A program made the position numbers and the translations under genes. From Crateriforma spongiae (lineage in GTDB: Bacteria > Planctomycetota > Planctomycetia > Pirellulales > Pirellulaceae), in NCBI RefSeq assembly GCF_012290005.1, contig NZ_JAAXMS010000004.1, positions 620,001 to 684,000 on the forward strand: a stretch of 64,000 bases of DNA, given 5' to 3'. The notes beneath the pieces are model-generated. The model searched no databases. It saw only the letters and a program-made list of their open reading frames with translations, and had not been told where the DNA came from. Shown here one piece after another: positions 37,649-55,499 of this stretch (position 1 is the first letter of the stretch; every line of letters begins with the position of its first letter).

Positions 37649-38743
37649 ATGGCCGCTGATGCCGATCACGGCGGGACCGTCAACGGTGGACCGCCGCAAG
37701 ACGACGCCGCTTTGGGGACAGATGATGCGAAGCGGTTGTCGGAAGCTCGGGAGAGGATCCGTCAACAACTGGGCAAAATCATCGTCGGACAGGACGATGT
37801 CATCGAAGAAATCTTGATCGGGCTGTTCAGCCGCGGTCACGTGTTGCTCGAAGGCGTGCCTGGTTTGGCCAAAACGCTGATGATCAGCACGTTGGCACAG
37901 ACGTTGGATCTCAGTTTCAGCCGGATCCAGTTCACCCCCGACTTGATGCCCGCCGACGTCACGGGCACGGAAATCATCGAGGAGGATCGCAATTCCGGGC
38001 ATCGCGAATTGCGGTTCATGAAGGGGCCGTTGTTTGCCAACGTCGTGCTAGCAGACGAAATCAACCGGACGCCGCCCAAGACGCAGGCTTCGTTGTTGGA
38101 AGCGATGCAGGAACGTCAGGTCACGGTGGGGCGAACGCGGCACCCGCTGGACAATCCGTTCTTTGTGTTGGCGACCCAAAACCCGATTGAACAGGAAGGC
38201 ACCTATCCGCTGCCCGAGGCGCAGCAGGACCGGTTCATGTTCAAAATCTTCGTCGAATATCCGACGTTTGACGAGGAATTCGAAGTCGCCCGGCGAACGA
38301 CCGGAATGAACGATCAAGATGTCCAGCCGGTGATGGCGGCCGAAGAAATCATTCGTCTGCAAGACTTGGTGCGTCGGGTCCCCGTCAGCGATCACGTCAT
38401 TCGTTACGCGTTGTCGCTGGTTCGTCAAACCCGGGTCGGCAGCGACGGTGTGCCGGAATTTGTCGACGAATTGGTCGGCTGGGGTGCCGGCCCGCGGGCG
38501 GTCCAGTTTTTGATTCTGGGCGGAAAAGCCAGGGCATTGTTGCAGGGCCGATTCCACGTCCAAATCGAAGACATCCAAGCGTTGGCCAAACCGGTGCTGC
38601 GTCACCGCATGGTGGTCAACTTCGCGGCCGAAAGCGAAGGCATCGGCAGCGACGAAGTCATCGATCGGATCATTGACGCCACGCCCACCACCGAAGACGC
38701 CCTGTCACGCGATGCCCGGTTCCAAAAGATATTTGCGTCCTGA
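37649..38743 (+). CDS. MoxR-family AAA ATPase
   Basis: This AAA+ ATPase of 364 residues has its Walker A motif EGVPGLAKT at 68-76, Walker [16 protein letters not shown], and the MoxR signature [19 protein letters not shown]. MoxR proteins act as chaperones for VWA-domain complexes; the next four genes encode DUF58 and VWA-type proteins, which fits that role. The next gene starts inside this one (38712), overlapping by 32 bp. The start at 37649 is an ATG without a clear ribosome-binding site. Confidence 0.96.
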
Positions 38744-39614
38744 GGTTACCGGTCGCATCCGCCGCTTGGAGTTGACGGCTCGTCGGGTCGTCGAAGGCTT
38801 CTTAAGCGGGATGCACCGCAGCCCCTACTTCGGCCAATCGATCGAATTTCTTCAGCACCGGCAATACGTGCCCGGTGACGAGATTCGGCACATCGATTGG
38901 AAGGTGTACGCGCGGCAAGACCGATTGCACATCAAGCAATACGAAGAAGAAACCAACCTGCGGTTGCAGTTGGTCGTCGACCGTTCGGCCAGCATGGCTT
39001 ACGGCGATGGCGATTCGAACAAATTCGACTATTCCGCGTCGATCGCCGCGTCACTGGCGTACCTGGCGCTTCGGCAGAAAGACGCGACGGGCCTGTACAC
39101 CTTCGACACCGCGGTCCGCGACAGCATCACCGCACGCAGCAACCAACAACAGCTTGCTCGCATGCTGGCGTTGTTGGAATCAGTCGGTGCAGACGGACGG
39201 ACCGATTTGAAATCGGTGGCCATGGAAATCGCACAAACGATTCCGCGACGGGGTTTGGTCGTGGTGATCAGCGACTTGCTGGGCGTCGATTCATTGTTGG
39301 AAGGGCTGCAGGTGTTTCGCGCCCGCGGTCACGACGTCGCCTTATTTCATGTGCTGCATGACCACGAAGTCGACTTTCAATTCGACGGTGCGACCCGATT
39401 CGAAGGCTTGGAAACCGACCAGATTCTGAATTGCAACCCGCGGGCGTTGCGGGAAGGTTATCTGGAGGCGCTCAACGAGTTTTTGGAGTCCACCCGCCGT
39501 GCATGTGGCCGGTTGCAGATCGATTACATGCTGACACGTACCAGTGAACCATTGGATGCGGTGTTGGCCAAGTTTTTGTCGACGCGTTTAAGGTTGCCCA
39601 ACTTGCGTAAGTAA
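38712..39614 (+). CDS. DUF58 domain protein (VWA-like)
   Basis: This protein of 300 residues carries the DUF58 signature: [28 protein letters not shown] at about residues 50-80. A VWA-like region follows with a MIDAS-type [13 protein letters not shown] near residue 93, and later [20 protein letters not shown]58 proteins regularly partner MoxR ATPases. The ATG at 38712 overlaps moxR by 32 bp, suggesting coupling; the longer frame from 38673 is not conserved. It has no clear membrane helix. Confidence 0.9.
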
Positions 39615-39708
39615 ATTTCGTCGCCCGGTCGATCGGATGTTGATTCGGCCGCCGGACCCTTTGATTGGTTTTCACCCCACGTCTTCCTTTTTCCGTTAAG
39701 TCTTCGAC

Positions 39709-42252
39709 TTGTTTCTGTTTCCCGTCCTGACGATCGGTTTTCTGTTTGTCGCGGTGCCGCTGTTGGTCCACCTGATCAACATGCTGCGCCATCGCCGACA
39801 ACCGTGGGCAGCGATGGACTTTTTGCTGGCCAGTTATCGCAAGCAACGCAAATGGGTGGTGTTGCGGCAACTGTTGTTGTTGCTGTCGCGTCTGGCCCTC
39901 GCGGCCTTGCTGATCGCCTTGTTGGCCGGTTGGACCGGCGGCGGCAAGCTGATGCAAATGCTGGGCGGCAAAACGGTTCACCACGTCGTGCTGTTGGATG
40001 ACAGCTATTCGATGGGGGATTCCAGCGGCAACACGACCGCCTATCAGTCGGCGTTGCAAACCCTGCAGGACTTGACCCGCCAATTGGCTCAGGAAGACGG
40101 CGAACATCGTTTGACGGTGATGCGATCCAGCCGCGCGGCTCTGGCGACCCGAGGCGGGATCCAGCGGGGTGATACGGCGGCGGATTTGTCGTCCCAGACG
40201 ATCACCGGCGATTCACGTTTGATTCGACGCGTGATGGCGACGGCGGCATCACCGCTGCGGACCGACATGACCGCGGCGGTGGAGATGGCCGCTCAGTTGC
40301 TGGAGAACGATTCGGCCGATGAACGACACGTTTATTTGTTAAGCGATTTTCGACGTCGCGATTGGTCGGCGCCCGAGCGTTTGACTCAGCAGCTTCGTCG
40401 GATCGATGGCGATGCGGAAATTCGGTTGGTCGATTGCGCCGGGGCGGCGGCGGGCAACTTGGCGATCACCGATCTTTCACCCCAGCAAGACGTCTGGGTC
40501 GCGGGCGTTCCGGTGGTGATCCGAGCCAAAGTCAAAAATTATGGCAGCGGTCCGGTCAACAACGTGACGATCGGCGTGCGGATGGTCTTGTACGGCGACG
40601 ACGTCACGACGCCCGAACCGGGGTTGCCGCAAAGCGGTCGCGTCGAATCGTTGCCCGCCATCGTGATCGAATCGCTGCAAAGTGGCGAAGAAGTCACCAA
40701 GACGTTTCAAGTCTTTGTTGCGCAACCGGGGACTCATGCGATCGAAGCTTGGTTGCCCGAGGATGCCTTGGCGATCGACAACCGCCGCATCTGCACGTTG
40801 CCATTATCCGAAACGCAAAAGGTTCTGGTCATCGACGATGACCCCGACGGCCGCGGTGCCTATCACGTCGGATCGGTTCTGAATCCCGGCGGCCAAGTCA
40901 ACATTGGTGCGGTTCCGCAGGTGGAATCGTCCAGTTTCTTGCGATCGATCACGCCGGAATCGTTGGCGGAGTTTCGAGCGGTCTATCTGATCGATGTTCC
41001 GACGATCGGCGAAGGTGCCGCCGCGGCGCTGGACCGGTATGTCCGCAGCGGTGGCGGGCTGGCGTGGTTCCTGGGCGAATCGGTCGATCGAACGGTGTAC
41101 AACCAAACCTTGGTGTCGGCGGATCGACGGTTGTTACCGGCCGCGTTGCTGCAAATCCAACCGCTGCGTGATCGCCCCGATGGCGTGACGGCGGATGTGC
41201 GAATGGATGATTCATCGGATCTGTTGCTTCCACTGGCATCCGCCGGCGACGGCGTGTTTTCGTTGGTTCGGTTCAGCGATTCATGGTTGCTGGATTTGAA
41301 AGATGACGATGCAAACGACACCGGCATTTCGACGGACGTGGTGTCCGGCGATGTTGACGACGCGGCCGCCACGGAATCGGAAAACCTTGAAATGGGACCG
41401 GTGCGAGTTCCGCTGCGACGCACCGATGGTGTGCCGGTGGTGATGCAACATGATTACGGACGTGGTCGCGTGGTGACGGTCGCCGCGGGGCTGGACGGAC
41501 AATGGACCAACTGGACGGGTGATCCGACTTTTGTGGTGTTCTTGTTGCAAACCAATGCGTATCTATGGAGCGCGGCGTCGCCCCCAACGGCTCGATCGGT
41601 CGACGACCCGATGCGTGTCTCCTTGCCCGCCGATCGATACGCCCCGGTGTTGACTTGGTTACCGGCCAACGAACCGCCGCGATTGCCGATCGAACTGTCC
41701 CGTGATGACCTGGCCGACGATGATTCGACCGATGCGGGCTCCGGTGCAGCATCTGGTGACGGTGGCCGGCAGCAGACGCTGGAATTGGATCCGGTCGGTG
41801 CGATCGTCGACGGACGTGTCGATGTGACCGATCTGATGCGTCCCGGTTTGGGCGAATGGATGTTGACGGCGCTGGACGGCCAAACGGAAATGCGGCCGGT
41901 GGCGACGACGATTCGTGTGGGTGAAAGCGATTTGCAGCGCAGCAAGCATGCCGAGGTCTTGCGTGACTTGCAGCCGGTCGATGCGGAGTTCATCGACCGT
42001 GGACGTTGGAACGACCAAACACGCCAAGCGGGCAGTTCGTTGGTGTCGCTGGTTCTGTTGGGATTGTTGGTGTTGTTTTTTGCGATCGAACAGGCTCTGG
42101 CGTACTGGGCCAGCTATCACGCGGCGGCCCCATCGTCGATCAAAAGTGGTCCGCGTGGCGGCGGTGTGGGAAGCACCCCGGCGTCGTGGTCGAACCGATC
42201 GACCACAGGTTCGCAAGCGACCGGTGATTTGACGGGGGATCGCGTCGGATGA
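39709..42252 (+). CDS. BatA-like membrane VWA protein
   Basis: This protein of 847 residues has two N-terminal membrane helices (FLFPVLTIGFLFVAVPLLVHLINMLRH and LLLLLSRLALAALLIALLAGW), the BatA/aerotolerance-type head. A VWA domain follows with a MIDAS-like DDSYSMGDSSG near residue 100 and VYLLSDFRRRDW. Long beta-rich regions follow, and a C-terminal helix (SLVSLVLLGLLVLFFAIEQAL). The start is TTG at 39709, since no ATG is available upstream of the first helix. Stop and next start overlap (ATGA at 42249). It probably faces the periplasm, as a partner of MoxR. Confidence 0.9.
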   Translation: MFLFPVLTIGFLFVAVPLLVHLINMLRHRRQPWAAMDFLLASYRKQRKWVVLRQLLLLLSRLALAALLIALLAGWTGGGKLMQMLGGKTVHHVVLLDDSYSMGDSSGNTTAYQSALQTLQDLTRQLAQEDGEHRLTVMRSSRAALATRGGIQRGDTAADLSSQTITGDSRLIRRVMATAASPLRTDMTAAVEMAAQLLENDSADERHVYLLSDFRRRDWSAPERLTQQLRRIDGDAEIRLVDCAGAAAGNLAITDLSPQQDVWVAGVPVVIRAKVKNYGSGPVNNVTIGVRMVLYGDDVTTPEPGLPQSGRVESLPAIVIESLQSGEEVTKTFQVFVAQPGTHAIEAWLPEDALAIDNRRICTLPLSETQKVLVIDDDPDGRGAYHVGSVLNPGGQVNIGAVPQVESSSFLRSITPESLAEFRAVYLIDVPTIGEGAAAALDRYVRSGGGLAWFLGESVDRTVYNQTLVSADRRLLPAALLQIQPLRDRPDGVTADVRMDDSSDLLLPLASAGDGVFSLVRFSDSWLLDLKDDDANDTGISTDVVSGDVDDAAATESENLEMGPVRVPLRRTDGVPVVMQHDYGRGRVVTVAAGLDGQWTNWTGDPTFVVFLLQTNAYLWSAASPPTARSVDDPMRVSLPADRYAPVLTWLPANEPPRLPIELSRDDLADDDSTDAGSGAASGDGGRQQTLELDPVGAIVDGRVDVTDLMRPGLGEWMLTALDGQTEMRPVATTIRVGESDLQRSKHAEVLRDLQPVDAEFIDRGRWNDQTRQAGSSLVSLVLLGLLVLFFAIEQALAYWASYHAAAPSSIKSGPRGGGVGSTPASWSNRSTTGSQATGDLTGDRVG

Positions 42253-45044
42253 TCGGACAACTGGCGGACCGAAGCGAAGTCGTTTACGAATTCATGCGAG
42301 CCCGATCGCTGGACGGGTGGTGGATTTGGGCCGTGGTCGTCTTGGGCGTGGTCGCCCTGCTGACGCTGTGCGTGCGTTTTTATCGACGCGACGTCGTGGA
42401 GATTTCGCGGCCCGTCGGCTGGACGCTGATGCTTTTGCGGGTGACCGCCGTGATCGCGCTGGTGTTCTTCTTCTTTGACCTGCAACGTCGAACGCAGCGG
42501 GTGGTGACGCGGCCCAGCGAAGTCGTCGTGATGGTCGACACCAGCCAAAGCATGTCGCTGGCCGGCGGCATCGATCCGGGATCGCCCAGTCGAGTGCAGT
42601 TGGCTGAATCCCTGCTGGATGATTCGCCGTTGTTGACGCAGATGCGCGACGAACATCGCGTCAGCGTTTACGGTTTTGATGCGGAATCAGAACCGACGCT
42701 TTGGATGTCCACCGCCACGGCGGATCAATCATCGGATACCGATTCGGCGGCACAGCCGCAGCCAGCCAATGGGGACGAAACAATTTCAGCGACCGCGCGC
42801 CGGATAGCCTGGTTCGGCGGATTCGCGATCGCGGTCGGCTTGTTGCTGGCCTTGATCTCCTTGGCCATTGGTGCCACCGGACGTGGACAATCGGTCGGCT
42901 GGTTCCTGGTCACCTCGGCCAGTTGTCTGTTGATCGGCGGGGTATCTTTGGGCAGCGTCTATTGTGTGCAAAGCCCTGCATCGCTGGCGTCGATTCTAGG
43001 TTTGTCGGGGCCCTCTGATGCGGACGATACGACCGAGGAACCGGAATCGACCGAGGACCCGTCACAGGGACCATCGGGCGTGGCGGACTGGCAGACTCAG
43101 GTGGCCGCCGTCGGCAGCGAGAGCCGGATCGGGGACGCGATTCGCACGGTTCTGACCGACCACGAACCCAGCACACTGGCGGGAATCGTGGTCATGACCG
43201 ATGGCCAAAATAATGGCGGCGTGGACTTGGGCAGTGCGACGGCGCTGGCCCGACGTGCCGGGGTTTCGGTGTACCCGGTCGGCTTGGGCAGCAGTCGTCC
43301 GGCGACAAACGTTCGCGTGGTCGATCTGGATGCCCCCAAACGCGTCTATCCGGGCGACAAGTTTGCCGTGTCGGCGGTGTTGCAGGGCAGCGGCGCCCGT
43401 CCGATCGAAGTCGAAGTCCAATTGCTGGACGGATTGGATCAAACGGCCGGAAGCGACGGCAATGCGTCCACCGATGGTGGCGATACCGCCGTCGATTTGC
43501 CGCCCAACGTGATCGACAGCCGACGTGTGACTTTGCCGGTGGACGGGACGTTGTCGGGACTGCGTTTTGAAATGGAACCAGAATCCGTCGGCCGACGTCG
43601 CGTGGCGGTACGTATCGTTGCACCGGAGGGTGACACGAACGTGCGTGATGACGCCCAGGCGGCGCGATACGAGGTCGTGTCCCGTAAGTTGCGAGTGATG
43701 GCGGTCGCCGGTGGTCCCACCCGCGAATACCGGTTCGTGCGAAACTTGTTGTACCGGGACAATTCGGTGGAACTGGACGTCTGGCTGCAGACCGGGCAAC
43801 CCGGGATGAGCCAAGACGCGGATTTGGTTCTGACGGACTTTCCCGAAACACCCGAAGACCTGTTCGAGTATGACGCGATCATCATGTTCGATCCCGATTG
43901 GCGATCGTTCAATGCGGAATCGTTGCAGTTGATCGAACGATGGTTGGCCGAACAGGCCGGTGGGCTGATTTTGGTCGCCGGTCCGGTTTATCACCCCCTG
44001 TTTTTCCGCGGGCGAACCGATCCCCGCATCAGCACCGTACGAGGGTTCTTTCCGGTCGATCTGGCCACACGCGGTGCTTTGTTGGGTGGGGGTCGCCAGG
44101 GCGGTGATGATGCTTGGCCGCTGGACTTCACGCCGGACGCGCAACGAGCGGAATTCTTGTGGATCGATCAAGACCCGACGTCCAGCTTCCAAATCTGGGA
44201 CGAATTCGATGGCGTCTATGACTTTGTGGGTGTCAAAGGACTGAAACCGGGCGCGAAAGCGTATTCACGATTTTCCGATCCGACCACGCGTGTCGGTGAC
44301 GAATTGCCGGTCTTCATGGCGTCACAGTTTTACGGTTCGGGTCGAACGTATTTTCAGGCCAGCGGTGAAATGTGGCGATTGCGGCAAGCCAGCGACGCCT
44401 ACTTTGACCGCTATTACACGCAGTTGATCCGCTGGGCCAGCGAAGGACGTTTGCTGCGTGACAGTAATCGTGGTGTGCTGTTGGTCGACAATTCCAAAGC
44501 GATGGTGGGCGATACGATCGCAATCCGCGCGGTGTTAACCGACGACCAGTTCGAACCGTTGCAGGTACCCAAGGTTCCGGTGAAGGTGTTGACGCCCGGT
44601 GGCACCGTGATGGATCTGGATTTGACGCCGACGCCGGGCCAACCACGCCCGGGAACCTATGGCGGACGTCTGATCGTGCGCGAGGCCGGCGGATATGAAA
44701 TTCGATTGACGTTGGGCGATGCTTTGGCCGAACAGGTGCTGCGGCAAAGCGTTCAAGTGCGATTACCAACCGTTGAACTGGAGCGACCGCGACGAAACGA
44801 TGACGCCCTGACGTCGTTGGCGGATCTGACCGCCGGCCGCTTCTTCCCATTGGATGATCCGGCGTCGACCAACACGGTGGCCGATGAATTGGTGCGCGTC
44901 ATACGACCTCAACCACAGACCACGGTCCTGCCCGGTAACACTGACCAAGACTTTACTCGACGCCGAAACGCCGCACTGATGTGGCTGATCGCGACGTTTT
45001 TGACCTTCGAATGGGTGACCCGACGTCTGCACCGTCTGGCATGA
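42249..45044 (+). CDS. Membrane VWA protein with VWA domain split by two helices
   Basis: This protein of 931 residues has two N-terminal helices (WWIWAVVVLGVVALLTLCVRF and LMLLRVTAVIALVFFFF) before a VWA domain. The MIDAS DTSQSMS is at residues about 97-102 and strand RVSVYGFDAES at about 137. The sequence then departs to two extra hydrophobic segments (about 186-205 and 216-238) and an acidic linker. It resumes the VWA fold at about residue 280 with IGDAIRTVL and AGIVVMTDGQNNGG. The rest is beta-rich, ending in a C-terminal helix. It overlaps the previous gene by ATGA, so it is translated with it. The domain split is seen directly; the topology is inferred. Confidence 0.9.
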   Translation: MIGQLADRSEVVYEFMRARSLDGWWIWAVVVLGVVALLTLCVRFYRRDVVEISRPVGWTLMLLRVTAVIALVFFFFDLQRRTQRVVTRPSEVVVMVDTSQSMSLAGGIDPGSPSRVQLAESLLDDSPLLTQMRDEHRVSVYGFDAESEPTLWMSTATADQSSDTDSAAQPQPANGDETISATARRIAWFGGFAIAVGLLLALISLAIGATGRGQSVGWFLVTSASCLLIGGVSLGSVYCVQSPASLASILGLSGPSDADDTTEEPESTEDPSQGPSGVADWQTQVAAVGSESRIGDAIRTVLTDHEPSTLAGIVVMTDGQNNGGVDLGSATALARRAGVSVYPVGLGSSRPATNVRVVDLDAPKRVYPGDKFAVSAVLQGSGARPIEVEVQLLDGLDQTAGSDGNASTDGGDTAVDLPPNVIDSRRVTLPVDGTLSGLRFEMEPESVGRRRVAVRIVAPEGDTNVRDDAQAARYEVVSRKLRVMAVAGGPTREYRFVRNLLYRDNSVELDVWLQTGQPGMSQDADLVLTDFPETPEDLFEYDAIIMFDPDWRSFNAESLQLIERWLAEQAGGLILVAGPVYHPLFFRGRTDPRISTVRGFFPVDLATRGALLGGGRQGGDDAWPLDFTPDAQRAEFLWIDQDPTSSFQIWDEFDGVYDFVGVKGLKPGAKAYSRFSDPTTRVGDELPVFMASQFYGSGRTYFQASGEMWRLRQASDAYFDRYYTQLIRWASEGRLLRDSNRGVLLVDNSKAMVGDTIAIRAVLTDDQFEPLQVPKVPVKVLTPGGTVMDLDLTPTPGQPRPGTYGGRLIVREAGGYEIRLTLGDALAEQVLRQSVQVRLPTVELERPRRNDDALTSLADLTAGRFFPLDDPASTNTVADELVRVIRPQPQTTVLPGNTDQDFTRRRNAALMWLIATFLTFEWVTRRLHRLA

Positions 45045-45119
45045 CGGCCATTACCGACGGTTCATTTTTGACCACTGCTTGACCTTGATCCAACGCCGCA
45101 ACGACTGAATCCAACTTCC

Positions 45120-47555
45120 ATGTCTTCCGCAAGTTCCCTTGACCCGAAACTGGCTTCGCTGATCGATCAGTTGCGATCGCGAATCCGCCGGTACGTCGCT
45201 TGGGATGCGTTGTTGGCGGCATTGGTCATTGTGTTGGCCGGATTTTGGATCGGATTGGCGTTGGATTACCTGCCGGTAAAGTTGGGCGGGACGGAGATGC
45301 CGCGGTCGGCGCGGATGTTGTTGTTAATTGCCATCGCCGCTTTATTGTTATTTGTGGTGTCGCGGCTGCTGATCGGTCGTCTGACGCGGCCGTTGCCCGA
45401 TGACTCTTTGGCGTTGTTGATCGAACGCAAGCATCCATCGTTGGGCGGACGACTGGTCACGGCGGTGCAGTTGACGCGACCGGGGCGCCAGGGGGATTCG
45501 CATGATGACCGTTTGCTGGGACGCGTGCATCGTGAAGCGGTGACCGGCGCCGACGACGTGGATTTGGGGTCGGTATTCCAGTGGCGACCACTGCTTCGAA
45601 AAATCGGTGTGCTACTGCCGCTGGCCTTGGCCGCATTGTTGCTGTTGGTGATCAGTCCCCAGACCGCTTGGACCGCCGCGTCACGGTTGATGTTGTTCAG
45701 CGACCAGCCATGGCCGCGACGTGCGTCTTTGGAAATGGTCGGGGTGGAATTGCCGCGAATCACCGCGGGTGAACAAGACGATGCGGAACCGCTGTTCGTC
45801 GAATTCGATGGCACGACGGTTCGTCTGCCTCGCGGCAGCGATCCGGTACTGCGTATTCGCGCCAAGGCGGACGATGACGCGATCGTGCCGGATGTTTGTA
45901 CGGCGTATTACCAAACCGACGCCGGCACACGCGGCCAAGCCAACTTGCGTCGTGTCGGTCGGCAACGTGATGGGTACCAAGCGTTCTTGCTGGACGGCCC
46001 GCCACTGGCCGGACTTAGCGAATCGATGTCGATTTCCATTCGCGGTTTGGATGATCGCTTGGACGGGTACCGTATCGAAGCGGTCACGCCGCCGGCGGTC
46101 AAGCAATTGGACGTACAGATTCGCTATCCCGATTACTTGCGTGGTGACCTGCCCCAGGGCGAACAGGTCATCGACCGTGACACGCCGTATCAGGCAGGGT
46201 TGCGAATCCGCGAAGGCAGCCGAGTTCGAGTCACCGCGCATGCAAGTTCGCCGATCGGGGCCATCGACCACCAGGTCACCCAAAGTGGTCAGGTCGTTCC
46301 GGGGATTGCACCACGCATCGTCGATGATGCGATGTCGGCCAGCTTGTCGATCGATCATTTCGACGAAGCGACGACGGTCAAATTGGTGCCGATCAGCGAT
46401 GACGGCATCAGTGCCCAAGCACCGTATCGCTATTTCTTTGGCGTGATCCGAGACCAGCCGCCGGAGGTCTCGTTGAAGCTGCCGGGGATCGGGTCCGCCG
46501 TGACACCCATCGCTCGGTTGCCGATCGCTGTCCAGGCGACAGACGATTATGGGATCGACCAAAGCACCGTCGACTTGGTCGTGTCGTCGCCCGAAGCGTC
46601 GGGGACACCGAACGAACCGCTTTCCGTTTTCCGGCCCACGCCGGATCGCGACGGACGCAGCGAAGGCGCGATTGATTTGCGTGATCTGGCCGACCAGGGA
46701 ACGATCGAAACGCTGCAACCGGGCGGATCGATCAGCGTGTATGCCGAGGCGACCGACGCATACGATCTGGATGGCCGTCACGTGTCACAAAGCGAGATGT
46801 TTCGCTTACAGATCGTCACCCCGGAAGATTTGTTGGCACTGTTGGAGCGGCGTGAACTGGGGCTTCGGGCACGGTTGGAACAAACGATCGACGAAACCCA
46901 AACGCTTCGCGACGGTTTAGCACGACTGGAAATGCCAGGCGAACCGGTGTCCGGCACGTCCGAGGATTCCGACGAACAGGCTTCGCCGGATCGTCAACGG
47001 CAGATATTGCGGCTTCGTATCCAACAAGCGGCATTGCAAGCGTCCAAGAGCAGCGAGGAACTAAATGGTATCGTCGCGGCCCTGGGCGATCTGCTAGAAG
47101 AAATGGTGAACAACCGTGTCGATTCGGTCGACCGGCGGGAACGTATCGGCCAATCCGTCCGCGATCCACTGCGGTCGGTGGTGGACAACGAAATGCAACG
47201 TCTGTCGGCTCGAATCGCCGAATTGATGTTGGCCGCCGAAGCGAAAGACGACGCGGCCGACGCCCCCAACTCGAACAACGAAACCACCCAACCAGAAGGT
47301 TCTGACGACGCCGCGGCTGACAGCATCGCGGGATCGGGCCCGTCCGGCCGGCAAGCCGTCCAGGCACGTCAGGCGGCGGTCCTGGCCGCGGACCAGGCTT
47401 TGTTGCAGCTTTCTGCGATTTTGGAAAAGATGCTTGACCTGGAAAGCTACAATGAAATTCTGGACATGGTTCGCGGTCTGATTGACGACCAGGAACAACT
47501 GCTGGAAGAAACCAAGGAACAGCAAAAAGCGCGAATCAAGAGCTTCTTCGACTGA
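45120..47555 (+). CDS. DUF4175-like membrane protein
   Basis: This protein of 811 residues has three N-terminal helices (WDALLAALVIVLAGFWIGLAL, LLLIAIAALLLFVVSRLLI and LLPLALAALLLLVI). A large extracytoplasmic beta-rich region runs from about residue 200 to 560, with Ig-like strands (PPEVSLKLPGIGSAVTPIARL). A helical C-terminus includes RQRQILRLRIQQAALQ and YNEILDMVRGLIDDQEQLLEE. This layout resembles DUF4175 proteins of the MoxR/VWA modules. It starts 75 bp after the VWA gene. Assignment is by layout more than by a sharp motif. Confidence 0.82.
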   Translation: MSSASSLDPKLASLIDQLRSRIRRYVAWDALLAALVIVLAGFWIGLALDYLPVKLGGTEMPRSARMLLLIAIAALLLFVVSRLLIGRLTRPLPDDSLALLIERKHPSLGGRLVTAVQLTRPGRQGDSHDDRLLGRVHREAVTGADDVDLGSVFQWRPLLRKIGVLLPLALAALLLLVISPQTAWTAASRLMLFSDQPWPRRASLEMVGVELPRITAGEQDDAEPLFVEFDGTTVRLPRGSDPVLRIRAKADDDAIVPDVCTAYYQTDAGTRGQANLRRVGRQRDGYQAFLLDGPPLAGLSESMSISIRGLDDRLDGYRIEAVTPPAVKQLDVQIRYPDYLRGDLPQGEQVIDRDTPYQAGLRIREGSRVRVTAHASSPIGAIDHQVTQSGQVVPGIAPRIVDDAMSASLSIDHFDEATTVKLVPISDDGISAQAPYRYFFGVIRDQPPEVSLKLPGIGSAVTPIARLPIAVQATDDYGIDQSTVDLVVSSPEASGTPNEPLSVFRPTPDRDGRSEGAIDLRDLADQGTIETLQPGGSISVYAEATDAYDLDGRHVSQSEMFRLQIVTPEDLLALLERRELGLRARLEQTIDETQTLRDGLARLEMPGEPVSGTSEDSDEQASPDRQRQILRLRIQQAALQASKSSEELNGIVAALGDLLEEMVNNRVDSVDRRERIGQSVRDPLRSVVDNEMQRLSARIAELMLAAEAKDDAADAPNSNNETTQPEGSDDAAADSIAGSGPSGRQAVQARQAAVLAADQALLQLSAILEKMLDLESYNEILDMVRGLIDDQEQLLEETKEQQKARIKSFFD

Positions 47556-47607
47556 TGGATGCCTGAATTTGAGCGATGAAACACCGTCCCAGCATGGGAC
47601 CAGCCCG

Positions 47608-49488
47608 ATGACGGTCGGCCGGACTGGCGGATCACGGGCTGAACGTTCCTTCGCAGTTTTTGGTCGTCGGTCAGCTTTGGTGGCTTCGGGCGACAACGCT
47701 TCTTGCGGCTTCCGACTTCACGGCATCCGCTTCTCCTTAATCTGTCTGTTGTTGACGGTGCTGGTCCCCACGCTGGGATCGTTTGCAAGGGCCGACGATG
47801 CGACCGAAGCTCTTTCGGCACGTCAAATCAGTCTGGCGACGCGATTTCAAAAACTGGAAGCGTTGTTGTTGCGTCTGGCCGACATGGAGGCCGCGGAGAA
47901 CCCCGAGCGTGCATCGCTGTTGAAACGGGCCGCCAAACAGTCGCGCGATCGGTTCGTGTTGACCAAGCTGCAAGACGCCGCATCGTCACTGGACAAACAG
48001 CGTTTCCAAGACGCCGTCGATCAACAGGAAACGGCCACCAAGGAATTGGCCGCGTTGTTGAAGTTGTTGCTGACCGAAGATCGCAGCAAGCGTATCCGTG
48101 ACGAAAAACAACGCATCGCCAAAGTCATTCGGGAACTCAAACGCGTCGAACGTTCGCAGCGCAGCACTCGTGCCCGCACTGAAAACGGCGCCGACACCGA
48201 TCAACTGAAGCGCGAGCAAGAATCGCTTAGCGAGCGTGCCGAATCGTTGTCCGATGACCTGGACGACGGCGAATCGGAATCATCCGAACCGTCGGATGAA
48301 TCGAACGATGAATCATCGCCGCAATCCGAAGACGCTGATTCTAAAGACTCTGAATCCGACGAATCTGACGGCGAACAGGGCGATGCACCGGAGCCGGATG
48401 AATCAGACGCCAAGGATCCGAAAGATGGATCCGAATCGGACACGGGCGACAAACAGGAGCCGCAAGATTCGTCCGCCGAATCATCCGAATCGTCACCCTC
48501 GGAATCGTCGCCGAAATCGGAACAAGATTCACAGCCCTCGCAATCTCAGTCTCAAGAATCTCAGTCTCAGCAATCGGAATCCCAGCCGTCGGACTCGCAG
48601 CAGTCCGAATCCCAGCAATCGGAATCCTCGGATTCCCAGCCGTCTGGGCCCCAGCCGCCGCAATCGCCACAAGCCAAAGCGAACGATCAGCTGCAGCAGG
48701 CCATCGAAAAGATGCGTCAGGCCGAAAAGGACCTGGAAGAAGCCAAGCGTGACGACGCGGTCGAAAAGCAACGCGAAGCGGAAAAACAGCTTCGCCAAGC
48801 GATCGATCAGCTGGAACAAATCCTGCGCCAGCTGCGTGAAGAGGAGATGCAGCGGGAATTGGCCAAACTGGAAGCTAGGCTTCGTCAAATGGCGGCGATG
48901 CAATCCAAGATCTTGGACGACACCACGGCGCTGTCCCAAACGCCCAAAGCACAGCGGAACCGTCAGACCGATTTGAAGGCGGGGGATTTAGCGTTCGAGG
49001 AGAAAAAAGTGACCTTGGACGCGGATCGCGCGATGCTGTTGTTGCGCGAGGAAGGATCAAGTGTCGCGTTCCCCGAAGTGATTTCGCAAATTCGTGACGA
49101 CACCGTGGTGATCGCCCAGCGGTTGTCGCAAACCAAGATCGATGGCGTGACCAAGGGGATGCAGGAAGACGTCTTGGCCGCGTTGGAGGAAATGATTGCG
49201 GCGTTACAGAAAGCTCAAAACGATCTGGAAAAGAAGAAACAACAGAACCAGCAACCGCAACAACCCGGACAACCGGGCGAAGAACCGCTGGTCCAGGCAC
49301 TGGCGGAACTAAAATTGATCCGAACGATTCAAACACGCATACAATCCACCACGCGGCGATACTCGGGACTGATCCAGACGGGCGAAACGACGTCGGAGGA
49401 AGTCCAACCGTTGCTGCAAGATTTGGCCGAACGCCAGAGTCGGCTGTACCGAATCACTCGTGATTTGGCCCTGGAACGCAACCAGTAA
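47608..49488 (+). CDS. Exported coiled-coil protein with long Ser/Glu/Gln-rich linker
   Basis: This protein of 626 residues starts at the ATG at 47608; the frame is open upstream but overlaps the previous gene. A hydrophobic segment (FSLICLLLTVLVPTLGSFARA) around residue 50 looks like a signal or anchor. Helical segments flank a low-complexity stretch at about residues 216-354, made of Asp/Glu/Ser then Ser-Gln repeats. Long heptad-like coiled coils follow (KDLEEAKRDDAVEKQREAEKQ region, and ALQKAQNDLEKKKQQN). No catalytic motif is visible. It is in line with the VWA module and probably part of the same complex or transcript. Confidence 0.82.
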   Translation: MTVGRTGGSRAERSFAVFGRRSALVASGDNASCGFRLHGIRFSLICLLLTVLVPTLGSFARADDATEALSARQISLATRFQKLEALLLRLADMEAAENPERASLLKRAAKQSRDRFVLTKLQDAASSLDKQRFQDAVDQQETATKELAALLKLLLTEDRSKRIRDEKQRIAKVIRELKRVERSQRSTRARTENGADTDQLKREQESLSERAESLSDDLDDGESESSEPSDESNDESSPQSEDADSKDSESDESDGEQGDAPEPDESDAKDPKDGSESDTGDKQEPQDSSAESSESSPSESSPKSEQDSQPSQSQSQESQSQQSESQPSDSQQSESQQSESSDSQPSGPQPPQSPQAKANDQLQQAIEKMRQAEKDLEEAKRDDAVEKQREAEKQLRQAIDQLEQILRQLREEEMQRELAKLEARLRQMAAMQSKILDDTTALSQTPKAQRNRQTDLKAGDLAFEEKKVTLDADRAMLLLREEGSSVAFPEVISQIRDDTVVIAQRLSQTKIDGVTKGMQEDVLAALEEMIAALQKAQNDLEKKKQQNQQPQQPGQPGEEPLVQALAELKLIRTIQTRIQSTTRRYSGLIQTGETTSEEVQPLLQDLAERQSRLYRITRDLALERNQ

Positions 49489-49637
49489 ACGCCCCATCGT
49501 TGGACGCAAATTCGAAAGGATTCGCGAAATTCGACGGGCGGTGTCCCAGGTCAAACAACGATTTTGTTAGTTAGACACGATTTGCCTTTGCGGATGGATG
49601 CGGGGGCAGGTCGGAGTGGAACGGTCGAGGAAAGACG

Positions 49638-50903
49638 ATGATGAAGTCGGATCGAAAGCTTGGTGCCACCCGAATGCTTGGTGCCACCCCATTCGGTGCC
49701 CGCCCCCGCACCAGCGGACACGCGGATTGTCCAGACTTTCGGTCTTCCGTCCTTTGCCCAAAATCTTCTGAATCAGTCGCTTCCCAATTTTCTTTCGCCG
49801 CCGCGACCAAGCCCCGCAACACATCGGCTCGACTCACTTCGTCTTTGATCATCGGTTTCCTGACTTTGGCGGCGGTTGCCGTTGGCCCAATCGGCACCCC
49901 GGCGACCGCGTCCGACGCGCTGAAGAAACAAAGCACCTGGCAAACCTTGTCGGCCGACCAGTGGGCGACTCGCTTACGTTCGGATTTGGACAGCCTGGGC
50001 GTTTCGCCCGATGTCATCGACCAAGCGTCCGATCAATTTCTGCACGCCGTGCAAACCGAAGACGTGGATCCGCTGGATGCGTTTGTCGAACTGGCGGCGG
50101 GGATCGATCGATCGATGGCGGACTTGGTGGATCTTTCGCGCCAAGACTTGACGGCCGCGGCGGGAAGCATCGACCCCAGCGGACCAAATTACGCCGCGTT
50201 GAATTCGTTGCCCGAATCGACTCGTGACGCCGTGCGGATTTGGATGGGGCGTGAACTGACCCAGCAGCGACTGTACGACGAAGCGTTGCCCGTCATCGCG
50301 GAAGTCGACGCGATATCGTCGGTCGCGCCCGCCAGTTTGTTGTTCTACCGTGGCGTGTGTTACCACGCGCTGTTGATGAAGACCGAAGCGCTCGCGGATT
50401 TGCGACGGCTGATGGAAAACCCCGATGACGCGCCACAGCGGTTCGTCAAAACGGCGCAGTTGATGGTCGCCGACATCCGGCCGATGAAACCGGATTCGTT
50501 GGACGAAATTTCGCGCATGATGACCGACGTTCAGCGGCGGTTGGATCTGGGGCGTGCCAACGAAGAAGTGGAGCAACGCGAACAACAGATCATCGACAAA
50601 CTGACGAAGATGATCGACAAGATCGAAGAACAACAACAGCAGCAACAACAGGCCGCGTCGGCCGGTTCCAGTGGTTCGTCTGGTGGAAAGCCCGGCGGCG
50701 GGATGGCCGACAGCATGGCGGATGGCAACCCGCTTGGCAAAGGCGATGTGGATCGCAAGGATGTGGATCAGGGACCGGCTTGGGGAAACCTGCCGCCGGC
50801 CGAACGACACGAAGCCATTCAACAGATCAGCCGTGACTTGCCGACTCATTACCGCGACGCCATCGAAGCCTATTTCCGCAAGATGGCGACCGACCAAGGC
50901 TGA
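49638..50903 (+). CDS. Exported helical protein, last gene of the MoxR/VWA module
   Basis: This protein of up to 421 residues starts with ATG ATG at 49638. The N-terminal 65 residues are atypical and may be non-native; a later start just before a hydrophobic segment (LTSSLIIGFLTLAAVAVGPIG, about residues 66-86) is equally likely. The middle is TPR-like helical (LYDEALPVIAEVDAI, LLFYRGVCYHALLMKTEALADLRRL). A Gln-rich coil and Gly/Ser-rich stretch (about 330-355) precede a short conserved C-terminus (IQQISRDLPTHYRDAIEAYFRKMA). It lies 149 bp after the coiled-coil gene in the same orientation. Confidence 0.78.
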   Translation: MMKSDRKLGATRMLGATPFGARPRTSGHADCPDFRSSVLCPKSSESVASQFSFAAATKPRNTSARLTSSLIIGFLTLAAVAVGPIGTPATASDALKKQSTWQTLSADQWATRLRSDLDSLGVSPDVIDQASDQFLHAVQTEDVDPLDAFVELAAGIDRSMADLVDLSRQDLTAAAGSIDPSGPNYAALNSLPESTRDAVRIWMGRELTQQRLYDEALPVIAEVDAISSVAPASLLFYRGVCYHALLMKTEALADLRRLMENPDDAPQRFVKTAQLMVADIRPMKPDSLDEISRMMTDVQRRLDLGRANEEVEQREQQIIDKLTKMIDKIEEQQQQQQQAASAGSSGSSGGKPGGGMADSMADGNPLGKGDVDRKDVDQGPAWGNLPPAERHEAIQQISRDLPTHYRDAIEAYFRKMATDQG

Positions 50904-50957: not shown

Positions 50958-51980
50958 ATGACGCGGTGCCTGGTTACGGGGTGTGGCGGTTTTCTGGGCG
51001 CCGAAATCGTCCGCCAGTTGTTACGGCGGGGTGACGAAGTCATCGGTGTTTCGCGTCGCGAGTATCCCGATTTGGTCGACGCCGGGATGACGCATCGGCG
51101 TGGGGATCTGTCCGATCGCGACTGGACCATGCGGCACGTACGCGATGTCGACGTGGTCGTGCACACCGCGGCGATCGCCGGCGTCTGGGGCGCCATGCCG
51201 CCATACTTGCGGAACAATGTGCTGACCACGCGGCACATCATCGACGCTTGTCACCGTCACTCGATCGGCCGATTGGTGTACACCAGCAGCCCCAGTGTGA
51301 CGTTCGACGGCCAGGACCAAAGCGGCGTCGATGAGTCGGTGCCGTATCCGACCAAGTGGATGTGCAATTACCCGCGATCCAAAGCGATGGCCGAAGCGAT
51401 GGTGATCCAAGCGGACGACGCGTCGCGGCTGCGGACGTGTTCGCTGCGTCCGCACTTGATTTGGGGCGACGGCGACCCGCACCTGTTGCCACGGCTGATC
51501 GACCGGGCCGCCAAAGGACGGCTGGCGATCATCGGCGATGGCAACAACCGGATCGACATGGTGCACGTAGTCAACGCGGCTGATGCCCATGTGTGTGCCA
51601 TCGACGCACTGCAAACGTCGCCGGATCGTGCCGCCGGACGCAGTTATTTTATCGGCCAAAACGAACCGGTTGATTGCTGGCCTTGGATCACGCGTCTGTG
51701 CGAAACCGCGGGGGTCAAGCCGCCGAGCCGCCAAGTCAGTCTGCGGACGGCCCGAATGATCGGAACGATGTTGGAGGCCGCCTATCATCTGACCGCACGA
51801 TCGGGCGAACCGCCGATGACTCGGTTCGTCGCGGCACAGCTGGCCCGGGATCACTATTTTGACGGCACCGCGGCGACCGAACGTTTGGGGTACCAGCCAT
51901 TGTTGACGATGCAGCAAGGGCTGGACGCCACCGCCGATTACCTGCGGACGCTGGGCGACCGGACGGTATCGGGCAAATAA
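50958..51980 (+). CDS. OleD-like NAD(P)-dependent epimerase/reductase
   Basis: This extended short-chain dehydrogenase of 340 residues has its nucleotide-binding motif TGCGGFLG at 7-14 and catalytic Tyr138/Lys142 in YPRSK. The stretch LVYTSSPSVTFDGQDQSGVDES and then LRPHLIWGDGDPHLLPRL closely resembles OleD, the 2-alkyl-3-oxoalkanoate reductase of bacterial olefin synthesis. OleA, OleB and OleC are not present in this window. Instead it precedes a ketoacyl synthase, an ACP and a CrtI-like oxidoreductase in the same direction, suggesting reduction of a beta-keto intermediate in that cassette. The reductase role is inference from family and context. Confidence 0.88.
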   Translation: MTRCLVTGCGGFLGAEIVRQLLRRGDEVIGVSRREYPDLVDAGMTHRRGDLSDRDWTMRHVRDVDVVVHTAAIAGVWGAMPPYLRNNVLTTRHIIDACHRHSIGRLVYTSSPSVTFDGQDQSGVDESVPYPTKWMCNYPRSKAMAEAMVIQADDASRLRTCSLRPHLIWGDGDPHLLPRLIDRAAKGRLAIIGDGNNRIDMVHVVNAADAHVCAIDALQTSPDRAAGRSYFIGQNEPVDCWPWITRLCETAGVKPPSRQVSLRTARMIGTMLEAAYHLTARSGEPPMTRFVAAQLARDHYFDGTAATERLGYQPLLTMQQGLDATADYLRTLGDRTVSGK

Positions 51981-52335
51981 CATCGGGCAAATATGCGACA
52001 TCGGGCTGCCGACCCAACGGGCGATGCGATCCGCCGGATCAAGGCTGCGGACGCCCGGTCGCGAAACCACGGGCGATTTGCTTGGCGGTGACGTTTGTGG
52101 CGGTTGATTGTGGGGACGAAAAGCCGGGCGGTCGTGACGATTCGCATGGGGGGCGGGGCCGCAACGCTGCGGGACTTCGGCCACCGGGATGTTGTCAATC
52201 TGCGTTGCGAACGCTAGTTTTTTGTGATTGTCGCCCTCGCCGGACCCACCGGCCGCCTGACGCCGCCGGATCATTCGTCCGGCCCGGCTTTGTGCCCCCT
52301 TCTGACGGCTCGATTGGTCGAGCCCCTTTGCTGCT
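51981..52335. other. Intergenic region before the ketoacyl synthase
   Basis: This 355-bp stretch shows no convincing gene. It has a trivial 12-bp direct repeat (ATCGGGCAAATA twice near 51970-51990). No hairpin, promoter or operator was identified with confidence. Its size means the OleD-like gene and the ketoacyl synthase may be separately transcribed. Confidence 0.45.
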
Positions 52336-53595
52336 GTGATCGCACCCAACCGCGCCTCCAAATTGCCCGACGATCAACGAATCGTCATCACCGGTATCGG
52401 CCTGACTGCGCCCAATGGGAACGATTGGGAAAGCATGCGGGAATCGTTGCTGGAAAAACGCAGCGGCGTTCAGCCGTATGAAATTCGGTACTTCGGAAAG
52501 ACCCTGGCCGGCGTCTGCGATTTCGACACCAAGCGTTACCAGGCAAAGAAAGAGATTCGTCGTGGGACTCGTGCCGGCAGCGTCGGCGTGTACGCGGCCA
52601 ACGAAGCGGTCAAGCACAGCGGGCTGGATTGGGAAAACATCGACCGCTCGCGAGTCGGCATTTATGTCGGCGTGACCGAGCATGGGAACGTCGAAACCGA
52701 GAACGAAATCTACGTCATCAAAGGTTTCGATTACGACACCAGTTGCTGGTCGCATCACCACAATCCGCGAACGGTCGCCAACAATCCGGCCGGCGAAATC
52801 GCGTTGAACATGGGTATTACCGGGCCGCACTACACGATCGGCGCCGCCTGTGCCGCGGGTAACGCGGGATTGATCCAGGGCGCGCAAATGTTGCGACTGG
52901 GCGAATGTGATTTGGCCATCGCCGGCGGGACAAGCGAAAGCATTCACACCTTCGGAATCTTTGCCAGCTTCAACAGCCAAAACGCTTTGGCCCGGCACGA
53001 TGACCCGACCCGAGCCAGTCGGCCGTTTGACACCCAACGCAATGGTATCGTCGTCGCCGAAGGCGGTTGTCTGTACACGATGGAACGGCTGAGCGATGCC
53101 AAGGCCCGTGACGCCAAGATTTACGGCGAACTGGTCGGTTACGCGATGAACACCGACGCCACGGATTTTGTTCTGCCCAATCCCGAACGGCAATCACAGT
53201 GTGTCCAGATGGCTTTGGACCGCGCTGGTTTAGCCGCCGAAGACATCGACATCGTCAGCACGCATGCCACCGGGACCAACAGCGGTGACACCCAAGAATG
53301 CGATGCACTGCGGCGGGTCTTCGGTGATTCCCCGGGCACCAAAATCAACAACACCAAAAGCTACATCGGTCACGCGATGGGCGCCGCGGGCGCTTTGGAA
53401 CTGGCCGGCAACCTAAAGTCTTTCGAAGACCGCGTGGTCCATCCGACCATCAATGTCGACGACCTGGATCCGTCCTGTGAGCTTCCCGGTTTGGTTCTGA
53501 ACGAACCTCAGGAAGTTTCGCGGGTGGATTACATCCTGAACAACTCCTTCGGAATGCTGGGTATCAATTCCGTCGTCATCATCGGCCGTGTTTGA
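52336..53595 (+). CDS. Beta-ketoacyl-ACP synthase (FabF/KAS II-like)
   Basis: This condensing enzyme of 419 residues has a full Cys-His-His set: Cys172 in GAACAAGN, His in THATGTNSGD, and His in NTKSYIGHAMGAAGA. It should extend an acyl chain with malonyl-ACP. The start is GTG at 52336, because no ATG lies before the first conserved strand (RIVITGIGLTAPNG). With the small ACP 75 bp downstream and a CrtI-like oxidoreductase, it looks like a dedicated chain-building set rather than housekeeping FabF. That reading is inference. Confidence 0.94.
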   Translation: MIAPNRASKLPDDQRIVITGIGLTAPNGNDWESMRESLLEKRSGVQPYEIRYFGKTLAGVCDFDTKRYQAKKEIRRGTRAGSVGVYAANEAVKHSGLDWENIDRSRVGIYVGVTEHGNVETENEIYVIKGFDYDTSCWSHHHNPRTVANNPAGEIALNMGITGPHYTIGAACAAGNAGLIQGAQMLRLGECDLAIAGGTSESIHTFGIFASFNSQNALARHDDPTRASRPFDTQRNGIVVAEGGCLYTMERLSDAKARDAKIYGELVGYAMNTDATDFVLPNPERQSQCVQMALDRAGLAAEDIDIVSTHATGTNSGDTQECDALRRVFGDSPGTKINNTKSYIGHAMGAAGALELAGNLKSFEDRVVHPTINVDDLDPSCELPGLVLNEPQEVSRVDYILNNSFGMLGINSVVIIGRV

Positions 53596-53670
53596 TTCGG
53601 CCCTGCCGCGACCAGCATTTTGTCGACGCCTCGGCGTCATTCTCGTTTGTCATCCCCAGCCAAAATCAAT

Positions 53671-53922
53671 ATGACCCCTGAAGAAATTCGATCCGAGATT
53701 CTGGACATCCTTGACGATATTTCGCCCGACGAGGACCTGGACAGCCTGGACGACGACAAGCCGTTTCGCGAACAGCTGGAACTGGACAGCATGGACTTTC
53801 TGGACATCGTGATGGAGCTGCGCAAGCGCCATCGTGTTCAGATTCCCGAGGAAGATTACGGCAATTTGGCCAGCATGCAGTCGACGGTGACTTACCTGGA
53901 ACCGAAGATGAAGGACCTGTAG
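53671..53922 (+). CDS. Acyl carrier protein
   Basis: This small acidic helical protein of 83 residues carries the phosphopantetheine site LELDSMDFLD with Ser40. The usual DSL is DSM here. MTPEEIRSEILDILDDI at the start is a normal ACP helix I. The ATG at 53671 is preferred to the upstream frame from 53620. Position right after the ketoacyl synthase suggests it carries the chain made by that enzyme. It would be activated by a phosphopantetheinyl transferase such as the one at 12567. Confidence 0.93.
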   Translation: MTPEEIRSEILDILDDISPDEDLDSLDDDKPFREQLELDSMDFLDIVMELRKRHRVQIPEEDYGNLASMQSTVTYLEPKMKDL

Positions 53923-54092
53923 CGGCGGTGTCGTCGCGTCGCCCCAGTTTTTTTGTGCGTCCGCCGGCACGCGGCGACGCATCAACGGGTGATGCCGACG
54001 CTGTCCCCGCATTCTTTACGTGCAGCATCGTTTGATCATCGCGCCTGACGCCGCTACGCGTGTGTGTGTCCAAGCTAGTTGGAATGCCATCG

Positions 54093-55499
54093 ATGTACGA
54101 CACGATCATCATCGGCGCCGGAATGAGCGGGCTGGCTGCAGGCATCCGCCTGGCACACTATGACCAGCGCGTCTGCATTCTGGAAAAGCATTACACGATC
54201 GGCGGTCTGAATTCGTTCTATCGCATGGGCGGTCGCGACTATGACGTCGGCTTGCACGCGATGACCAATTTCGCCCGCAAGGGAGATCGCCGCGGACCGC
54301 TGGCCAAGTTGATCCGGCAACTGCGTTTTCGCTGGGAAGATTTTCAGCTGGCCGAACAAATCGGCAGCAGCATTCGCTTTCCCGATGTCAGTTTGGATTT
54401 CAACAACGACATCGCGTTGTTGGAAAGTCAAATCGCCGAACGGTTTCCAGACCAGATCGATGGCTTTCGTTCGCTGTGTTCGTCGTTGTTGGATTACAGC
54501 GATATGGACGGCACCGATGCGAACTTCATGCGTTCGGCCCGTGACGTCTTGGCCGAACACATCAGCGAACCGCTGTTGATCGAAATGCTGTTGTGCCCGC
54601 TGATGTGGTACGGCAACGCACGCCAGAACGATATGGATTTCGGCCAGTTTTGCATCATGTTTCGTGCGTGTTATCTGGAAGGCTTTGGCCGACCCTACAA
54701 AGGCGTGCGGTTGATCTTGAAAAACCTGGTTCGCAAGTTTCGTGGGCTGGGCGGTGAACTGAAATTGCGAAGCGGTGTGTCGCGGATCCACGTCGATAAC
54801 GGACGTGCGACCGGGGTGGTTCTGGACGACGGAACGGAGATCGAAGCGAAGCGGATTCTGTCTTCTGCCGGAAACGTCGAAACGATGCGGATGTGTGATG
54901 ACATCACCGACGTCGATGTGGCCAAAGCGGGGCAGTTGTCCTTCATCGAATCGATCAGCATCCTGGATCGTCAACCCAAAGAGATCGGTTTCGATCGGAC
55001 GATCGTTTTTTACAACGACAGCCCGACGTTTCATTGGACGCGGCCCGATGATCAGTTATGTGATTTCCGCACGGGAGTGATTTGTTCGCCGAACAATTAC
55101 GTCTATTCCGATGACGAAGGCGAATTGCCCGAAGGGGTGATTCGCATCACCACGCTGGCCAATCACGATCGATGGTGTGCTTTGCCCGAAAAGCTATACT
55201 TGGCCGCCAAGGCACAGCAGTACGATGCCGCCATCGCCGCATCGGTCCGCTTCATGCCGGATTTTCGTCGGCATGTGGTCGACACCGACGTCTTCACGCC
55301 CAAGACGATCCGTCGATTCACTTGGCACGACAACGGGGCCGTCTACGGGGCGCCCGACAAACAGCTGGACGGCACCACGCACTTGCCCAATCTGTTCCTT
55401 TGCGGCACCGACCAAGGATTCGTGGGCATCGTCGGGGCGATCGTTAGTGGGATCAGCATGGCCAACCGCCACTGCTTGGTTGACGACACGGCAGCCTGA
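54093..55499 (+). CDS. FAD-dependent CrtI/phytoene-desaturase-like oxidoreductase
   Basis: This flavoprotein of 468 residues has the N-terminal dinucleotide fold YDTIIIGAGMSGLAAGIRLA (residues 2-21) and the CrtI-type motif EKHYTIGGLNSFYR. The C-terminal FAD motif is LFLCGTDQGFVGIVGAIVSG. Family members desaturate, isomerise or saturate polyene or retinoid substrates. The start at 54093 (MYDT) is preferred; ATG 54084 is possible. It is the last gene of the OleD-KAS-ACP group, so it may act on an ACP-bound or released polyene. Substrate is unknown. Confidence 0.9.
   Translation: MYDTIIIGAGMSGLAAGIRLAHYDQRVCILEKHYTIGGLNSFYRMGGRDYDVGLHAMTNFARKGDRRGPLAKLIRQLRFRWEDFQLAEQIGSSIRFPDVSLDFNNDIALLESQIAERFPDQIDGFRSLCSSLLDYSDMDGTDANFMRSARDVLAEHISEPLLIEMLLCPLMWYGNARQNDMDFGQFCIMFRACYLEGFGRPYKGVRLILKNLVRKFRGLGGELKLRSGVSRIHVDNGRATGVVLDDGTEIEAKRILSSAGNVETMRMCDDITDVDVAKAGQLSFIESISILDRQPKEIGFDRTIVFYNDSPTFHWTRPDDQLCDFRTGVICSPNNYVYSDDEGELPEGVIRITTLANHDRWCALPEKLYLAAKAQQYDAAIAASVRFMPDFRRHVVDTDVFTPKTIRRFTWHDNGAVYGAPDKQLDGTTHLPNLFLCGTDQGFVGIVGAIVSGISMANRHCLVDDTAA

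Follow-up and report, generated by a model that had tools for sequence, protein, structure and literature searches.

In the Ole pathway two acyl chains are condensed head to head by OleA; OleD then reduces the beta-keto group of the condensed product, from which OleC forms a beta-lactone and OleB finally releases CO2, leaving a hydrocarbon. An experimental precedent for a polyunsaturated substrate comes from Shewanella and Photobacterium, in which Pfa is reported to pass a 16:4 chain bound to acyl carrier protein (ACP) to OleA, resulting in C31:9 (PMC6463001). Ole genes are already known from planctomycetes (PMC7158056, PMC10176705), and Pfa-like clusters have earlier been proposed as Ole suppliers in some of them (PMC3098273). 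Rattray et al. (2009, PMC2649909) report C31:8 and C31:9 from Desulfotalea psychrophila, which is said to have no polyketide pathway for polyunsaturated fatty acids (PUFA). The same paper proposes anaerobic synthesis of PUFA and polyunsaturated hydrocarbons for clusters of type II fatty acid synthesis (FASII) genes and phytoene-desaturase-like genes in Kuenenia and Desulfotalea, and cites C31 hydrocarbons for other psychrophiles and for planctomycetes (its references 19, 20 and 49, the first two on Schlesneria and Singulisphaera); the term OleA is absent from its main text. Here we describe a four-gene cassette from the planctomycete Crateriforma spongiae, located in a stretch of 64,000 nucleotides (contig NZ_JAAXMS010000004.1, positions 620,001 to 684,000; hereafter the window). 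Judged from gene content and gene order, the cassette is likely to represent the acyl-supply half of a pathway to polyunsaturated hydrocarbons together with its OleD step, and in this pathway it would most likely replace Pfa as the supplier of polyunsaturated acyl-ACP to the Ole proteins.

The cassette lies on the forward strand at positions 50958-55499 of the window. Its first gene (50958..51980) encodes an OleD-like NAD(P)-dependent reductase of the 2-alkyl-3-oxoalkanoate reductase type (Pfam 3Beta_HSD; Tyr138/Lys142). It is followed, after 355 bases, by a beta-ketoacyl-ACP synthase (KAS) with a FabF-like fold (52336..53595, GTG start; Pfam ketoacyl-synt N and C; Cys172/His310/Lys341/His346), after a further 75 bases by a dedicated ACP (53671..53922; Pfam PP-binding, phosphopantetheine Ser40) and after 161 bases by Crt1, a CrtI-like FAD flavoprotein (54084..55499; Pfam NAD_binding_8/Amino_oxidase, FAD motif GAGxSG). 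An earlier note on this DNA had described four co-oriented genes with intact motifs, and we could verify both the open reading frames (ORFs) and the residues it named (Tyr138/Lys142, Cys172-His-His, Ser40 and the FAD motif). The OleD-like protein scores 343 and 324 bits with the NCBIfam OleD models (cut-off 580), and the best model for the KAS is fabF (TIGR03150; 321 bits, cut-off 493.75). Crt1 obtains 87.6 bits with its best model, a carotenoid isomerase (cut-off 586.9), and 53.9 bits with the phytoene desaturase CrtI model TIGR02734 (cut-off 238.1). Judged by these scores, the reductase, the KAS and Crt1 are each a relative of a curated family that stays under the cut-off of that family. The reductase is 42-50% identical to OleD genes located near OleC in other lineages.

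The grouping of the four genes is more than chance. Strong Crt1 matches (best E <1e-60; one match partial) are present in 111 of 119 Pirellulaceae genomes, and five of the eight genomes in which they are missing (G017, G034, G062, G065, G083, G084, G094, G115) are less than 86% complete. Matches to ACP and KAS lie near Crt1 in 26 of 30 short family loci (up to 4.4 kb, the window's own included). Among 19 longer family loci with Crt1 (up to 20 kb), KAS, ACP and Crt1 stand together in 13, OleD is found immediately ahead of KAS in eight, and in seven Crt1 is immediately followed by Crt2, a second CrtI-like gene about 25% identical to it. FabZ-like and FabI-like genes extend six family loci (L051-L053 and L056-L058). 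At the level of the phylum we sampled 214 planctomycete genomes with a completeness of at least 85 and took E <1e-100 as a strong Crt1 match. Such matches occur in 51 genomes, while 102 further genomes have weak matches only and are not counted as Crt1-bearing; KAS, ACP and Crt1 are found together in 12 of the 16 non-anammox loci. Gene order among relatives was one of two comparisons set in advance, and the synteny observed in many loci of the family, the phylum and the Desulfobulbales bears out the proposal of a dedicated lipid cassette in which KAS/ACP chain building, a reductase of the Ole type and a CrtI-like flavoprotein come together.

The surroundings of the cassette in other genomes link it to the Ole pathway. 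OleA, OleC or OleD lies within the Crt1 stretch (at most 20 kb) in nine of the 16 non-anammox loci (L118, L119, L121, L122, L124, L125, L127, L128, L132), and two of these, L118 and L121, hold the full oleABCD set in a single run next to the cassette; the OleB-type gene, which is haloalkane-dehalogenase-like, is situated between OleA and OleC in both and in L125. At least one Ole gene shares a cluster with KAS-ACP-Crt1-Crt2-FabZ-FabI in the Pirellulaceae loci L051-L053 (three species of one genus, with OleA at the far side), L056 and L058, and in L118, L121, L122, L125, L127, L128 and L132 of other families. In a set of 80 genomes chosen by hand from the 214, OleA is present in 37 of 37 planctomycetes with strong Crt1 and in 11 of the 43 others; OleA, OleB, OleC and Crt2 each have a strong match in the same 25 of 25 Pirellulaceae genomes.

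Relatives of OleA, OleB, OleC and OleD are all present in the window genome. The absence of OleA-C claimed by the earlier note is therefore correct for the window and not for the genome, and its suggestion that KAS and ACP replace them does not stand. Because of these genomic copies and the oleABCD run beside the cassette in L118 and L121, the reductase is best read as the OleD of an Ole pathway, and KAS, ACP and Crt1 as a supplier of its substrate. The system thus resembles the OleABCD pathway of Xanthomonas and Shewanella in its four Ole relatives and in the single run of two loci, but differs in the acyl supply, which here is apparently a dedicated KAS-ACP-Crt1-Crt2 unit instead of plain FASII or Pfa, and in the scores of OleD and OleC, which remain below their cut-offs. 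OleA passes PRK09258. With the olefin beta-lactone synthetase model (cut-off 900), OleC reaches 602 bits in L052 and 547 bits in the window genome, and both pass the broader PRK09274.

Two further genes recur in the vicinity of Ole genes. A RimK/MptN-like ATP-grasp ligase adjoins OleC in several Pirellulaceae (L052:2195-3208; L056:2662-3642; L176:10082-10996 in the window genome), and an ATP-grasp gene opens the loci L051-L053 and L056 together with an OleC-like ligase. Of 16 OleA loci from Pirellulaceae, 13 have a peptidase C26 gene (gamma-glutamyl hydrolase-like) close to OleA (e.g., L090:8429-9178). Together, the ligase by OleC and the peptidase by OleA hint at an unknown glutamyl step.

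The cassette is likewise found in a second phylum. A 16S pattern gave eight records, whose titles assign seven to Desulfobulbales and one to Electryonea; Crt2 is present in all seven Desulfobulbales records and was not found in the Electryonea record, the one of its kind among the eight searched. The gene order KAS-ACP-Crt1-Crt2-FabZ holds in five of five Desulfobulbales loci and in three of three more, with identities to the planctomycete proteins of 60-62% for KAS, 58-60% for Crt2 and 38-43% for Crt1. In L155, the one Desulfobulbales locus checked for FabG, a FabG-type gene stands between Crt2 and FabZ, and in Desulfopila a run of OleB, OleC and OleD is located at a distance of about 7 kb. 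Of 93 genomes of the Desulfopila family, 87 have a strong Crt1 match; the sole match of G338 was counted as Crt2 and not as Crt1. OleA is present in 78 of the 80 genomes tested for it here, the misses being the Electryonea and a genome of 1.2 Mb. Desulfotalea psychrophila and Desulfopila belong to the same family in the NCBI taxonomy. For D. psychrophila, three phytoene-dehydrogenase-like genes are listed (DP1860, DP2405 and DP2406; PMC2649909), and the consecutively numbered DP2405 and DP2406 would fit Crt1 and Crt2. The FASII clusters discussed there for Kuenenia and Desulfotalea likewise bring KAS, ACP, FabZ and CrtI-like genes together; the cassette described here is the one linked to Ole genes.

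The occurrence of pfaD (marker TIGR02814) alternates, nearly exclusively, with that of Crt1. We tested 78 genomes, comprising 62 planctomycetes (51 with Crt1 and 11 with OleA and no strong Crt1) and 16 Desulfobulbales. Among the planctomycetes, pfaD was found in none of the 51 Crt1-bearing genomes and is present in ten of the 11 OleA-bearing genomes without strong Crt1, which span 11 families (Fisher 1e-10, not corrected for kinship); in the window genome no pfaD was found at E 1e-20 or better. Both states occur within single families: in f43, G296 has Crt1 and G168 has pfaD, and in f3, G302 carries pfaD without a Crt1 match, the reverse of the eight other genomes tested. G302 also has a divergent OleA (42% in two pieces), which would be in line with an exchange of the entire system. 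In G132, G141, G158, G164 and G168 pfaD is at most 14 kb away from OleA. As Pfa is reported to feed a 16:4 acyl-ACP to OleA, the simplest reading of this alternation is that the cassette takes on this task with a different set of proteins. It would share with Pfa-Ole coupling (PMC6463001) the proposed role, i.e., an ACP-bound polyunsaturated chain handed to OleA, and would differ from it in relying on separate type II proteins and on flavoproteins, where Pfa is a multidomain synthase.

Several observations weigh against a supplier of the Ole proteins as the role of the cassette. In the window genome, oleABCD are not adjacent: OleA (contig C5, 214692-215792), OleB (C1, 1055719-1056633) and OleC (C4, 288369-290006) are located on other contigs than the cassette (C4, 671-675 kb) or hundreds of kb away from it; Crt2 is at C10:226034. 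The OleB type of this genome has haloalkane dehalogenases as its NCBIfam matches, below cut-off, and was called by alignment similarity to the genes that OleA and OleC flank in other families. Crt1 lacks an ACP or KAS beside it in four of 19 family loci (L048, L049, L054, L059). The alternation likewise has exceptions, as OleA occurs without Crt1 or pfaD in the planctomycete G121, OleA occurs without a strong Crt1 match in G338, G366, G398 and G413, and Crt1 and pfaD are carried together by G387, one of the 16 Desulfobulbales tested. Moreover, related genomes are not independent, those for the OleA and pfaD comparisons were chosen by hand, and most of the Crt1-negative genomes among the 214 lie outside both.

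The scattered Ole genes of the window genome, where OleD alone adjoins the cassette, and the Crt1 genes without ACP or KAS would suit an independent lipid or pigment pathway (a polyene, an aryl polyene or a carotenoid side branch), with OleD as a chance neighbour or as a ketoreductase put to new use. We consider such a pathway quite improbable in view of the Ole genes beside Crt1 in more than half of the non-anammox loci, the presence of OleA in every strong-Crt1 planctomycete of the chosen set, and a separate CrtI-type protein elsewhere in the window genome that passes the crtI_fam cut-off (392.7 vs 238.1 bits). A carotenoid pathway in particular was rejected on the grounds of that protein and of the Crt1 scores far below the carotenoid cut-offs.

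If the cassette supplies the Ole proteins, its ACP would be charged on Ser40 and the KAS would extend the chain on this ACP. A ketoreductase, partners of the FabZ and FabI type (clustered with the cassette in other lineages) and Crt1 and Crt2 would then keep or introduce cis double bonds without a PUFA synthase of the Pfa type, and the output of this chain building would be a polyunsaturated acyl-ACP. OleA would join two such chains head to head, the OleD of the window would reduce the beta-keto group, OleC would close the beta-lactone and OleB would remove CO2 to yield a C31:9-like hydrocarbon. The ketoreductase could be FabG-like as in L155; planctomycete clusters hold a FabI-like gene instead, and FabG would presumably be recruited from elsewhere. 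By analogy with D. psychrophila and the Pfa-Ole system, a C31:9-type hydrocarbon is the probable product in the window organism, as predicted from its genes.

We infer that Crt1 and Crt2 create or fix the double bonds, although their sequences do not indicate desaturation as such, because the nearest NCBIfam models are far below cut-off: the carotenoid isomerase for Crt1, a carotenoid desaturase model for Crt2 of the window genome and a carotenoid isomerase for Crt2 of L052. Crt1 has the N-terminal FAD motif and the family in common with the CrtI/CrtISO flavoproteins, in contrast to its low scores with the carotenoid models. The CrtI family includes isomerases and saturases. It is conceivable, then, that Crt1 and Crt2 saturate, isomerise or oxidise, and that the cassette makes unusual chains for the Ole proteins that are perhaps branched or otherwise modified and not polyunsaturated. 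The isomerase as the best model of Crt1 is in line with such chains, and so is the report that the two CrtI-like proteins of Kuenenia yielded no lycopene (PMC4790861), which makes a non-carotenoid role plausible for the group. The almost strict alternation of Crt1 with pfaD and the C31:8 and C31:9 of D. psychrophila, however, point to a polyunsaturated product, and we regard branched or otherwise modified chains as unlikely.

A phylogeny of KAS against FabF, the second comparison set in advance, places the cassette KAS outside housekeeping FabF. The tree holds 29 cassette KAS (21 planctomycete, eight Desulfobulbales), and three KS domains of Pfa-type loci (L178-L180) were left out. All 29 form one side of a 100/100 branch, which has a long stem (3.3) and separates them from the FabF of the window genome and from the anammox-type KAS; several long branches elsewhere leave the deeper order unsure. 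Cys172, His310, Lys341 and His346 are invariant in 29/29, and this retention of the FabF catalytic residues is what might be expected if the cassette KAS were a housekeeping FASII duplicate of ordinary function. That origin is highly improbable given the separate clade, the genome's own FabF with 602.6 bits, and Met407, which is invariant in 29/29 cassette KAS where the genome's own FabF has Phe. Housekeeping FabF was accordingly rejected as the identity of the KAS, on the fabF score below cut-off and the 100/100 clade.

Crt1 and Crt2 form separate clades, each of which includes both phyla (quick tree; support of 99 and 99 in the SH-like approximate likelihood ratio test). The planctomycete G144 (locus L125, genome of 2.1 Mb) groups with the Desulfobulbales in the trees of Crt1 (99) and Crt2 (97) and, with weak support, in that of KAS (87/68), a pattern suggesting that the cassette was transferred between the phyla as a unit.

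The make-up of the cassette is also reminiscent of the ladderane genes of anammox planctomycetes, as the earlier note had remarked. Loci of the families f40 and f64 show the order FabZ-KAS-KAS-Crt, with an ACP ahead in two of four (L133 and L136), and resemble kuste3603-3607 of Kuenenia (PMC4790861, Table 2). Five of ten anammox-type KAS lack the active Cys (Val in three of them); in these five the first His is replaced by Asn, and the second by Glu or Asp. As Kuste3606 is listed with a similar loss of catalytic residues (PMC2649909), we take the f40 and f64 genomes, from this pattern, to be anammox bacteria. The similar make-up of the operon, the basis for the hint, was confirmed, but the KAS and Crt proteins of the two systems are 24-32% identical and belong to different clades in the KAS and Crt trees, and a second, degenerate KAS marks the anammox type, whereas the cassette loci gave no match for a further KAS. 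Orthology to the ladderane operon was rejected on these three grounds. OleA was not found in ten f40 and two f64 genomes, nor OleB in the four f40/f64 genomes tested, and ladderanes were, to the knowledge of Rattray et al., made by anammox bacteria only (PMC2649909). That the cassette is a planctomycete counterpart of this operon, making ladderane precursors, is hence very improbable in spite of the similar make-up.

Two other features of the window were noted. Directly upstream of the cassette and on the same strand (37649-50903), with no evident link to it, are a MoxR ATPase, BatA, a weak VWA match below cut-off and three ORFs without Pfam match. At 14499-17174 an ORF of 891 residues combines, unusually, a sulfatase domain with a weaker GH5 cellulase-like match towards the C-terminus.

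Taken further, the observations may point to a second, non-Pfa bacterial route to all-cis polyunsaturated acyl chains, in which a discrete KAS, ACP and FabZ act with a CrtI-like pair that sets cis bonds without O2, either by isomerisation or by a quinone-linked desaturation, and which is hard-wired to OleA for C31:9-type products. Such a route would be common to Planctomycetota and Desulfobulbales, would have moved between them as a unit and been repeatedly swapped with Pfa, and the ladderane operon would be a distant offshoot of this kind of machinery. We put this wider proposal forward tentatively, as a serious possibility that falls a little short of an even chance. A search by title or abstract, with most subscription journals outside its reach, found no paper that ties KAS-ACP-CrtI cassettes to Ole genes.

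The cassette provides a concrete gene set for the question raised by Rattray et al. (2009) of how C31:9 is made without a PUFA synthase, and for the role of the phytoene-desaturase-like genes that accompany FASII genes. If our interpretation is true, it would represent an alternative to Pfa for the synthesis of polyunsaturated chains and would account for a large part of the Ole genes found in planctomycetes and in sulfate reducers that live anaerobically. It would likewise offer a cultivable way into the chemistry that is suspected behind ladderanes.

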